DNA of 64,000 nt from Myxococcales bacterium (GTDB taxonomy: Bacteria > Myxococcota_A > Polyangia > Polyangiales > Polyangiaceae). Shown here piece after piece: positions 8,794 to 57,663 of this stretch (its first letter is position 1; every line of letters starts with the position of its first letter). Where the stretch lies: assembly GCA_025355005.1 (NCBI GenBank), contig JANXLV010000338.1, positions 1-64,000 on the forward strand. Reading direction: 5' to 3'. Under the pieces are notes generated by a model. The model saw only the letters and a program-made list of their open reading frames with translations. It was not told where the DNA came from and did not search any database. The position numbers and the translations under genes were made by a program.

Positions 8794-8853
8794 CGTTTTT
8801 CGCCGATAGCTTCGCGCTGGCCGCGTTTTTCGCCGATAGCTTCGCGCTGGCCG
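8794..8853. repeat. 30-bp direct tandem repeat, two copies
   Basis: Two adjacent 30-bp units built on tttttcgccgatagcttcgc are virtually identical. They sit just upstream of nrdR in the rpiB-nrdR gap. With only two units and no spacers this is not a CRISPR. It lies within the probable nrdR leader on the minus strand. Confidence 0.9.
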
Positions 8854-8866
8854 CGCTTTTTCCTCC

Positions 8867-8908
8867 GCGCGGTCGTCACGCACGAAGGTGCGTTCTGGTC
8901 CGTGCTCG
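8867..8908. repeat. Dispersed hairpin element, core copy 1
   Basis: This 42-bp stretch aligns without gaps to cores at 37579-37620 and 57516-57557. Its centre, 8878-8893, is the hairpin acgcac-gaag-gtgcgt. The fourth pair is C:G here, T:A in copy 2 and G:C in copy 3, so pairing is kept while bases change. The right arm ends in the shared tccgtgctcg. The flanks seen in the two long copies are not recognisable here. Confidence 0.75.
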
Positions 8909-9011
8909 GAAGAAAGCACGCCCATCGCTCGCTCTCGACGAAAACCGCCCAGGCAGAGTGCCGTCCTCTCCGAGAATGCTCCTTCTCCACCGTCCCGCGA
9001 GGAGCCGTCGG

Positions 9012-37490: not shown

Positions 37491-37977
37491 ATCCAATCAG
37501 TGTCGCCCGCAATCGGGGCCACTGCAAACAGCATCGCCTGGCGCGAGATCCATCCCGCCAGGCTTCGTTTCGAGCTGCGCGCGGTGCTCACGTACAAGAG
37601 TACGTTCCGCTCCGTGCTCGCTCGAAGCCTTGCCTGACGGGCGGCTCTCGCGCCATGCGACGCTGTTTACGTAGAAACGAGAACGGAGATCGTCCTGGCT
37701 TTTGGGGGCGGTGAACACGAGAGGGTGGTGAGTGCCCGCGATGTTCGGCCGGGTGGCGCGGCGCGGCGTCGCGAAGGAGTCCACGCGTGGGGGCGAGCTC
37801 GGACAAAGTCGGAGCGGCGTCATCGGGTCGAACCAACATCGCCAGCCGTCGCGCCCCCGATCGAGTCCACGGCTGCGGACGACGCGCTGCGGCCACAGGC
37901 CGGACATGCGGGCGCTCACCGCCAAACGCGATTTACGGTTCACGTTCAACGCGGATCGAAGATCCGACGAATCATGA
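37491..37977. other. 487-bp intergenic region
   Basis: It lies between the SPFH gene (minus, ending 37978) and the exported protein start at 37490. It holds the ~140-bp dispersed element at 37530-37668. The rest (37669-37977) is GC-rich with no recognisable promoter, terminator or RNA gene. Several open frames cross it, but none has a protein-like composition or a ribosome site. Confidence 0.7.
37530..37668. repeat. Dispersed ~140-bp element, copy 2
   Basis: It begins agcatcgcct and ends atgcgacgctgttt, and aligns along its length with 57466-57605. Shared blocks include ggcttcgttt, gcgcgcggtgctcacg, cgttccg and tccgtgctcg. Its core 37579-37620 holds the hairpin acgtac-aaga-gtacgt (37590-37605). 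It lies within a minus-strand gene run, so it may be transcribed. Confidence 0.85.
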
Positions 37978-43178: not shown

Positions 43179-44360
43179 CTACTCGCGCCGCTGATCGCGC
43201 GGCGGCGGAACCATGTCGTCGTCGAAGACGAAGCTCTCGAAGCGCGGTCGCATCGGCGGTAGGTTGCCGGCGAGGACGGCTGCGGGCGCGCTCTTCGCTG
43301 GTGTCGGCGTGGGCGTCTTCGTCGGCACCGGCGGCGCCTTCTTCACGGGCACCGGCGGCGGCTTTCTCGGAGGCGGAGGCGACGGCAGCGTGGCCTGCGT
43401 CACGGTGTCCACGTTGTTCTCCGGCACCACGCGCTCCGCGCCGAGCTTGCGCGCGGACGCTGGTGGAATGAGTCCGAGCGCGCCCTTTGCCTGCTTGATC
43501 GCGACGTGGAACGTCTCCGCGAGATCGCGCGCGGATTGAAACCGCAAGCCCGCATCCGGCGCGAGGCCGCGTCGCATCCACGCGTCGAGCGGATAGGCCG
43601 CCTCCTCGGAGAACGTTCGCGTGAGCGATGGCGGCGGGCCGCTCAGCGCGTCGATCGCGTCCATGACCGACTCGCCCACGTACGGCACCGCGCCCGTGAG
43701 GCACTCGTAGGCCAGGACCGCGAGCGCGAACAGGTCGGCGCGCGCGTCCGGCGACGCGCCACGAAATACCTCGAGAGGCATGTACTCGTGCGTTCCCGCG
43801 ATCATGCCGACCTCGGTCGGGTGCGCCTGCACGACCTCCGCGATCCCGAAGTCCAGCACCTTCGCGAGCGTGCGCCCGCGATCGTCCTTCGTGAGGAAGA
43901 CATTGGCCGGCTTGATGTCCTTGTGCACGACTCCCATGGAGTGCGCTCGCGCCAGCGCACGCGCGACGTGCACGACGATCTCCTCGGTCTCGTCGAGGCC
44001 GAGCGTCTTCCGTTGCGTGCCACGCTCGGCGCCGTCTCCGTGGATGCGTCGGTCCAGCGCCTCCCCTTCGAGCGCCTCGTACACGATGTACGGGACGTTG
44101 TTCGAGGAGAGGATGCCGTACGAGAGGACGCGGACGATGTGCGGGCTCAGCATGCGCGCGCAGAGCTCGGCTTCACGCTCGAACGCGGCTCGACGAGCCG
44201 GGTCAGGCGACAGCGCCGACCGCATCACCTTCACGGCGACGTCGATCCCGAGCTTGTTGTCGCGGGCCAGCCACACCGCGCCCATCGAGCCCTCGCCGAG
44301 CGTCGATATCAGATGAAAGCGGCCTTCCAGCACCGCACCAAGGCTGAACAAGCTGCCCAT
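43179..44360 (-). CDS. Ser/Thr protein kinase, cytoplasmic
   Basis: 393 aa from the ATG at 44360. The kinase domain spans ~10-280: GEGSMGAVW, VAVKVMRSAL, the catalytic loop HKDIKPANVFL (HKD instead of HRD, the Asp kept), DFGIAEV and the activation segment GTHEYMPLEV, then the APE-like ADLFALAVLAYECLTG. The tail (~310-393) is Pro/Lys/Thr-rich with PPPRKPPPVPVKKAPPVPTK and no TM segment, so it is soluble. The substrate is unknown. It is divergent from the TPR gene and upstream of the M23 gene. Confidence 0.9.
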   Translation of the reverse strand: MGSLFSLGAVLEGRFHLISTLGEGSMGAVWLARDNKLGIDVAVKVMRSALSPDPARRAAFEREAELCARMLSPHIVRVLSYGILSSNNVPYIVYEALEGEALDRRIHGDGAERGTQRKTLGLDETEEIVVHVARALARAHSMGVVHKDIKPANVFLTKDDRGRTLAKVLDFGIAEVVQAHPTEVGMIAGTHEYMPLEVFRGASPDARADLFALAVLAYECLTGAVPYVGESVMDAIDALSGPPPSLTRTFSEEAAYPLDAWMRRGLAPDAGLRFQSARDLAETFHVAIKQAKGALGLIPPASARKLGAERVVPENNVDTVTQATLPSPPPPRKPPPVPVKKAPPVPTKTPTPTPAKSAPAAVLAGNLPPMRPRFESFVFDDDMVPPPRDQRRE

Positions 44361-56862: not shown

Positions 56863-57462
56863 ATGGACATGCAGAACGGGATCCAGACAGCGGGTGGTTA
56901 CGGTCCCCCCGGCGGCGGCGGCGGTTACGGTGGTCCCCCCGGCGGTGGCGGCTACGGCGGTCCCCCGGGCGGCGGTCCTCCTCCCGGCGGCGGCGGCTAT
57001 GGTGGTCCTCCTCAGGGCCCGCCCGGCGGCTACGGTCCTCCGGGTGGTGGCGGCTTCGGTCCTCCAGGTGGTGGCGGCTTCGGTCCTCCAGGTGGACCTC
57101 CTCCGGGTGGCGGCTACGGCGCGCCTCCTCCGGGCGGCTATGGTGGCGGTCCGCCGCCGTACGGCGCTCCTGGCTTTGGCCCTGGCGGTCCCGGATTTCC
57201 CGGCGGCCCCATGATGCCGGGCGCTGGCGGCGACGTGAACACCACGATCCCGCTCGTGCTCTCCATCCTGCTCGTGTTCCCGTGCTGCAATCTCCTCTTC
57301 GGAGTTCCCGCGCTGGTCTTCGCGATCCAGGCAGGCAACGCGAAGAAGGCGGGTGACTTCGAGACCGCGCGCAGCAAGGCGAAGATCTCGTACATCATCA
57401 TGGGCGTCGGCATGGCCCTTTCGGTCGTCGCCGGTATCGTCCAAGCCGCCATGAACAACTAA
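56863..57462 (+). CDS. CD225/dispanin-like membrane protein with Gly-Pro-rich repeat head
   Basis: 199 aa. The N-terminal ~120 residues are GPPGGGGYGGPP-type low complexity. The C-terminal ~75 residues match the CD225 (IFITM/dispanin) two-helix module: IPLVLSILLVFPCCNLLFG, the double Cys, then FAIQAGNAKKAGDFETARSK and IIMGVGMALSVVAGI. In animals the family restricts membrane fusion; in bacteria its role is unknown. The head is poorly conserved in such proteins. It is followed by the dispersed element and then a strong terminator, so it is a single-gene transcript. Confidence 0.8.
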   Translation: MDMQNGIQTAGGYGPPGGGGGYGGPPGGGGYGGPPGGGPPPGGGGYGGPPQGPPGGYGPPGGGGFGPPGGGGFGPPGGPPPGGGYGAPPPGGYGGGPPPYGAPGFGPGGPGFPGGPMMPGAGGDVNTTIPLVLSILLVFPCCNLLFGVPALVFAIQAGNAKKAGDFETARSKAKISYIIMGVGMALSVVAGIVQAAMNN

Positions 57463-57465
57463 ACC

Positions 57466-57605
57466 AGCATCGCCTCGAACCGTGGGGCATCCCGGGAGGC
57501 TTCGTTTTGGCCTGCGCGCGGTGCTCACGGACGGAAGTCCGTTCCGCGCCGTGCTCGTCCAAAGCCTCGCCTGCCGGGCGCCTCCGGTCCGATGCGACGC
57601 TGTTT
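57466..57605. repeat. Dispersed ~140-bp element, copy 3
   Basis: It begins agcatcgcct four bases after the CD225-like stop and ends gatgcgacgctgttt just before the terminator. It aligns throughout with 37530-37668. Its core 57516-57557 has the hairpin acggac-ggaa-gtccgt (57527-57542). It lies in the 3' region of the plus-strand transcript and in the gap between convergent genes. Confidence 0.85.
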
Positions 57606-57623
57606 CCCCTTTTGCGCGTGAGA

Positions 57624-57663
57624 CCCGTTCGGGAGATCATTCTCTCGGACGGGTTTTGCTTTT
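57624..57663 (+). terminator. Rho-independent terminator of the CD225-like gene
   Basis: A 13-bp stem (cccgttcgggaga pairing with tctctcggacggg, two G-U pairs), a 4-nt loop and the tail ttttgctttt form the strongest intrinsic terminator of the window. The dispersed element is between the gene and this terminator and would be in the transcript. Confidence 0.9.

Follow-up and report, generated by a model that had tools for sequence, protein, structure and literature searches.

The window, that is, the whole 64-kb stretch of Myxococcales bacterium GCA_025355005.1 analyzed here, carries the same 42-bp core without gaps at 8867-8908, 37579-37620 and 57516-57557, and the question is what kind of element these three copies belong to. 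The initial annotation had reported these cores, each centered on a 6-bp stem whose fourth pair is C:G, T:A and G:C in the three copies, respectively. Re-reading of the window sequence bore out both the placement of the cores and the three pairs, with the stems lying at 8878-8893, 37590-37605 and 57527-57542, and the similarity among the cores is far above chance level. The core hairpin is therefore real, but only its tip had been seen, since each 42-bp core is the apex of an imperfect hairpin of 105-145 bp, about three times longer than described. The features of the three copies, designated A, B and C, are as follows.

57460-57462, + strand: TAA stop of the gene upstream of copy A (199-aa CD225-domain gene, 56863-57462)
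57464-57606, + strand: copy A, full imperfect hairpin of ~143 nt, CCAGCATCGCC...GCGACGCTGTTTC
57499-57567, + strand: conserved core of copy A (covariance models R1/R2)
57527-57542, + strand: apical stem of copy A, acgGac-ggaa-gtCcgt, read from the sequence
37527-37670, + strand: copy B, full hairpin of ~144 nt, AACAGCATCGCC...GCGACGCTGTTT; member of the youngest subfamily
37562-37630, + strand: conserved core of copy B (covariance models R1/R2)
37590-37605, + strand: apical stem of copy B, acgTac-aaga-gtAcgt, read from the sequence
37671-37770, + strand: right-hand extension of copy B, gtagaaacgagaacgg... gggcggtgaacacgagaggg..., common to some sister copies
8826-8945, + strand: copy C, hairpin of the second subfamily, TTTTTCGCCGATAGC...GCTCTCGACGAAAA
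8850-8918, + strand: conserved core of copy C (covariance models R1/R2)
8878-8893, + strand: apical stem of copy C, acgCac-gaag-gtGcgt, read from the sequence

Copies A and B are 78% identical by blastn and, folded over 143-144 nt, gave z = -7.2 and z = -10.6, respectively; copy C gave z = -0.7 over a mis-framed stretch of 146 nt. The subfamily of copy C consists of hairpins of ~105-120 bp (three members were folded) that have the same tip and different arms. A direct duplication of ~30 bp, tttttcgccgatagcttcgcgctggccgcg, was also seen in the left arm of copy C (window 8797-8855). The broad covariance model, R2, matched the three window copies at E = 5e-19, 2e-18 and 4e-10; since these copies are among, or related to, the sequences from which the models were built, the independent evidence lies in genome-wide counts. 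A further, weak R2 match (21.7 bits, E = 0.002) was observed at 43382-43459, where it overlaps predicted ORFs.

A genome-wide search that recovered the three window copies alone would have spoken against the initial annotation. The element is instead abundant in its own genome (8.68 Mb in 380 contigs), where we found 47 blastn matches and 37 matches at E < 1e-6 with a 69-nt covariance model, i.e., at least 37 copies. Of the 60 same-family genomes searched, 27 had matches, several of them with 40-80 copies, and presence was patchy across the host phylum (14 of 113 genomes). When 84,980 species genomes were scanned for the pattern, the matches listed included Nitrospirota, Nitrospinota, Alphaproteobacteria, Gammaproteobacteria, Desulfovibrio, Polyangiaceae and Bacillota, Listeria newyorkensis among the last. 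Viral contigs, scanned likewise, gave 20 matches. Pattern scans and covariance models together also located the tip in relatives of L. newyorkensis, in other Bacillota MAGs and in prophages. Because a single pattern match is weak evidence, whole genomes were searched with the broader model. This yielded 149 copies in Nitrospirales NPIRA03, 135 in a Nitrospinota MAG, 94 in L. newyorkensis, 83 in Gluconacetobacter tumulicola, 58 in Phyllobacterium trifolii, 25 in Desulfovibrio A2 and only 3 in Sorangium So ce26. Each of the nine genomes in the L. newyorkensis genus group was positive, with 8-85 copies, and the hairpin was also present on alphaproteobacterial plasmids (Sphingobium, Shinella, Phyllobacterium, Agrobacterium, Ensifer and Rhizobium). 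No Rfam family scored above its gathering cut-off for the hairpin; MIR8788 matched a single copy at 45 bits against a cut-off of 124, a match that reflects generic long-hairpin shape and scant identity of sequence. Taken together, this is a real, widespread, structured repeat family that is REP-like in its behavior.

Copies are 105-150 bp long, and it is the tip that is conserved, with the sense-strand consensus GTGCTCACG-N-AC-nnnn-GT-N-CG[CT]TCCGC, while the arms drift yet stay complementary. Selection for structure had been proposed from the single varying pair of the three window cores, with independent change of the paired positions as the contrary outcome. The larger data set strongly supports the proposal. 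In an alignment of 80 copies that was fitted to the structure, 19 of the 22 core pairs had changed on both sides with pairing kept, and 89.6% of core cells were paired, versus 64.7% in shuffled and 31-45% in slid controls; an unfitted alignment of copies from the host genome likewise showed double changes. Nearly every pair in the arms covaries, including in stretches without other conservation, and the same internal loops recur across phyla. At the orthologous dak and fabG sites of Listeria, 9 and 10 of 47 pairs, respectively, had at least two Watson-Crick types, and because these compensatory changes occur at orthologous sites, pairing is kept at fixed places. The left end of the element is sharp (CTAAACAGC...) and the right end reaches varying lengths. 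Among young copies, compared at window 37671-37770 and at five loci elsewhere, some share a right extension of at least 100 bp (GGGCGGTGAACACGAGAGGG...), and others have a module of ~50 bp whose end, CTGTTTAG, inverts the left end, CTAAACAG.

Beyond what had been annotated, copy A begins at a stop codon, the foot of its hairpin lying 1-2 nt after the TAA of the CD225-domain gene. To place this in context, random positions in the same loci were used as the expectation for 136 non-redundant, non-viral copies and ORFs of at least 100 codons. The foot was at the stop of a same-strand gene in 78 of the 136 copies (7.4 expected), and the mirror position on the other side showed little, being occupied in 20 (7.3 expected). 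Within the host genome, the proportion was 16 of 18. Orientation of the element is locked to that of the upstream gene, and the upstream genes are diverse and include housekeeping functions (EF-G, RecR, DnaB, Ffh, FtsH, formate-THF ligase and others). Copies B and C have no same-strand stop at the foot: copy B is flanked by a Band-7 gene and a 240-aa gene that are encoded on the opposite strand, and copy C sits in the nrdR/rpiB interval. A separate, terminator-like hairpin was recognized by eye downstream of copy A (57623-57658), and likewise at the pfl locus.

The blastn search gave ten copies that match copy B at 93-97% identity along almost the entire query. In nine Listeria genomes, the element was present, absent, truncated or partly replaced at the pfl, fabG and dak loci, and is thus gained or lost at orthologous sites; remnants and nested replacements occur there, and the empty sites show decay, not clean insertion. 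In three of the orthologous Listeria loci, other repeats interrupted the tip or took its place, e.g., GCAAAGCGAATTAGAGCC...ATGCAGAGGAAC. Tandem arrays were found in Gluconacetobacter and Listeria. Mobility is indicated by the near-identical subfamilies, by presence or absence at orthologous sites, by the patchy distribution and by the tandem arrays. The copies defined neither a target-site duplication nor a sharp, common right end, and the search for a mobilizing gene found none; ORFs between paired copies at two loci, viewed as candidate transposases, proved on inspection to include no transposase.

The hairpin is itself a target. In the host genome, all strong ends of one multicopy IS fell within a hairpin loop, the count for one of its two ends being 8 of 8. 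The distinct junction contexts listed were all at C-nnnn-G; both orientations of the IS occurred, and a 6-bp repeat (e.g., CAAGAG) accompanied the insertion. In sister copies of copy B, the corresponding C-loop-G hexamer of the apical stem is the place of IS4-type insertion. The N-terminus of the IS product resembles the DNA-binding domain of Tn5-type transposases, in a match (E = 0.0055) that falls short of the curated cut-off. Many copies in the genome, a feature also missing from the initial annotation, are split in this way, and IS-split copies account for many contig ends; such junctions were recorded on 19 contigs of the host genome, covered by three runs of 17, 8 and 9 consecutively labeled loci, and every junction examined lay in the loop. 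The ends of this IS4/Tn5-like element (TCTCACGAT...) have the motif CTCACG in common with the hairpin tip.

The two strands of the hairpin are not equivalent. When copies were folded without G.U pairs and the 1x1 mismatches in the arms were counted on the gene strand, A.C outnumbered G.U by 132 to 21, and C.U outnumbered G.A by 108 to 7; the template strand thus bears G.T and G.A in its arms. The direction was identical in every clade group, with small counts in Nitrospirota and Nitrospinota, and was the same after reverse-complement folding and with a strand-symmetric aligner. Consistent with this, the antisense strand folded better in most clades and was the more stable in 142 of 181 copies, whereas in Nitrospirota the two strands were nearly equal in energy (13 of 26 copies). 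The conserved core is opposite to the arms, with wobble on the gene strand (99 G.U versus 8 A.C), most of it one fixed T.G, and since the core wobble lies on the gene strand, the strand inference rests on the arms. Considering that G.T and G.A are mismatches tolerated by nucleic-acid helices, the template, or bottom, strand looks like the constrained fold. Replication direction was rejected as the cause of the asymmetry, because head-on copies kept its sign in 6 of 7 cases, on one Listeria chromosome with dnaA at its start and few independent loci, five of the seven copies being a single tandem array.

Of the options offered by the initial annotation (a REP-like element, a small RNA domain or a protein-binding DNA hairpin), the data favor the REP-like element with the template strand folded, and a sense RNA domain is the poorer fit, given that the arm mismatches on the sense strand are A.C and C.U, not G.U. 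Our leading, albeit tentative, explanation is that of a widespread family of long, imperfect, REP-like palindromes that act as bottom-strand, single-stranded DNA hairpins served by a trans-acting enzyme. The acting form would be the single-stranded bottom-strand hairpin, whose tip would be recognized by an enzyme supplied in trans and used to copy or move the element, by analogy with the bottom-strand attC hairpins of integrons. By inserting, or by surviving, directly behind a stop codon, the element would occupy a harmless place between coding sequence and terminator. We read the family as RAYT-independent, REP-like mobile palindromes that probably act as single-stranded bottom-strand DNA. 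Against this explanation stand the search for a mobilizing gene, which found none, the copies' failure to define a target-site duplication or a sharp, common right end, the gene-strand wobble of the core, the nil energy difference in Nitrospirota and the location of window copies B and C (37527 and 8867) away from a same-strand stop. A bolder version, by which pan-bacterial selfish repeats spread as bottom-strand, single-stranded DNA hairpins and settle at stop codons, attC-like without integrons, by means of some recombinase or transposase that has so far had no known tie to repeats of this kind, seems to us doubtful.

Among the alternatives, a cis-acting RNA element at the 3' end of mRNA, like the REPs of E. 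coli, is a serious though rather unlikely one. Such an element would stall terminating ribosomes, block 3' exonucleases or set mRNA levels, with selection for pairing in the sense RNA. A foot only a few nucleotides from the stop, the sense-locked orientation and the position ahead of a separate terminator-like hairpin at copy A and the pfl locus all suit it, as does the report that REPs within 15 nt of stop codons lower translation (PMC12306157). It would also accommodate a predicted 'miRNA' in a Thalassospira small-RNA paper, TTCGGTGCTCACGTACTTTTAG, which matches the sense 5' arm of the tip as compared with the window core at 37579-37620 (PMC6413936). However, sense arms carrying the destabilizing A.C and C.U, with G.U and G.A left to the other strand, are the reverse of what sense-RNA pairing predicts, and the hairpin has no Rfam family. 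The bottom-strand preference could instead reflect an antisense RNA, a template-strand hairpin transcribed from downstream. Better folding of the antisense strand and its G.U and G.A mismatches would follow, but a promoter would be needed downstream of scores of unrelated genes, and terminator-like hairpins lie on that side at both loci looked at, which leaves this origin quite improbable.

If the copies were junk, MITE-like palindromes whose arms are restored by template switching (quasipalindrome correction) and not by selection, covariation of nearly all arm pairs, even in otherwise unconserved sequence, would be expected, and the copies are indeed mobile and decaying. Correction should, however, remove mismatches, and internal loops nevertheless persist unchanged from phylum to phylum; it should be strand-symmetric, and the mismatch types are not; and both the tip and the placement at stop codons show conservation. 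We therefore consider an origin by correction improbable. Classical REP/BIME elements moved by RAYT (Y1 HUH) transposases share with the hairpins a high copy number, extragenic palindromes, use as IS targets and some tandem arrays. However, PF01797, the Y1 transposase domain of RAYTs, was absent from 9 of 18 element-bearing genomes (divergent RAYTs could escape), among them G. tumulicola with 83 copies, L. newyorkensis with 94, P. trifolii with 58, Desulfovibrio A2 with 25 and four others. Its presence does not track the element, and elements of 105-150 bp lack the short, GTAG-headed REP unit. A RAYT is accordingly unlikely as the mobilizing enzyme, and we hold the classical RAYT-REP explanation to be very improbable. 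Integron-type attC sites or gene-cassette remnants would share the place after the stop, the gene orientation, the imperfect hairpin and the better-folded bottom strand. Yet the R boxes GTTRRRY and RYYYAAC occurred in 1 and 2 of 181 copies, respectively, and both in none; the hairpin conserves its tip instead of its base, and its copies are dispersed, without cassette arrays, behind unrelated core housekeeping genes, which disqualifies these genes as cassettes and makes an attC origin exceedingly unlikely.

Known repeats resemble the family in part. REPs are often near stop codons, are hot spots for IS elements and occur in clusters (PMC12306157, PMC2817692, PMC1525189). The REP/BIME elements of E. 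coli, Pseudomonas and Stenotrophomonas, associated with RAYTs, are likewise high-copy, extragenic, imperfect palindromes, but the present hairpin is 3-5 times longer and its tip is common across phyla; a GTAG/GGAG-type head, as in REP hairpins of 20-40 nt, was not seen in the copies read (by inspection, uncounted). ERIC, RUP and Correia/NEMIS are MITE-like, palindromic repeats of 100-150 bp with a co-transcribed position and proliferating subfamilies, as here. To our knowledge, they are restricted to few genera and mostly have terminal inverted repeats and target-site duplications, unlike the present family with its tip common across phyla and no target-site duplication found. In Sinorhizobium meliloti, ISRm22, of the IS4 family, inserts into REPs in 100% of cases, at the palindrome axis and with 6-bp direct repeats (PMC1525189), much like the IS4-type element of the host genome. 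Identity of the hairpin with rhizobial RIME or the S. meliloti REP was unsupported by a search of 300 kb of pSymB, which gave no R2 match. These comparisons do not place the family in the RAYT-REP class, RIME or attC. Parts of the family may have been described before, e.g., as rhizobial repeats; in our limited literature search, the Thalassospira paper was the only relevant match to the tip sequence.

In practical terms, the element accounts for contig breaks and for a number of small-RNA or 'miRNA' calls that are spurious, and it marks hot spots of IS insertion. If our reading is correct, one structured repeat with a conserved tip, absent from Rfam and placed directly behind the stops of housekeeping genes, is common to several bacterial phyla, and would provide a concrete substrate for finding a new hairpin-recognizing enzyme as well as a comparison case for how attC-like hairpins come to adjoin stop codons. 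In some prophages, the element follows the major capsid gene, and other phages carry unrelated long palindromes there. Across a run of 80 labeled loci from sphingomonad-type prophages, many unrelated long-palindrome families were observed after the HK97-type capsid gene, e.g., CCCCCACCT...AGGTGGGGG and GTCATCCCGGC..., as if any long hairpin were favored at that position.
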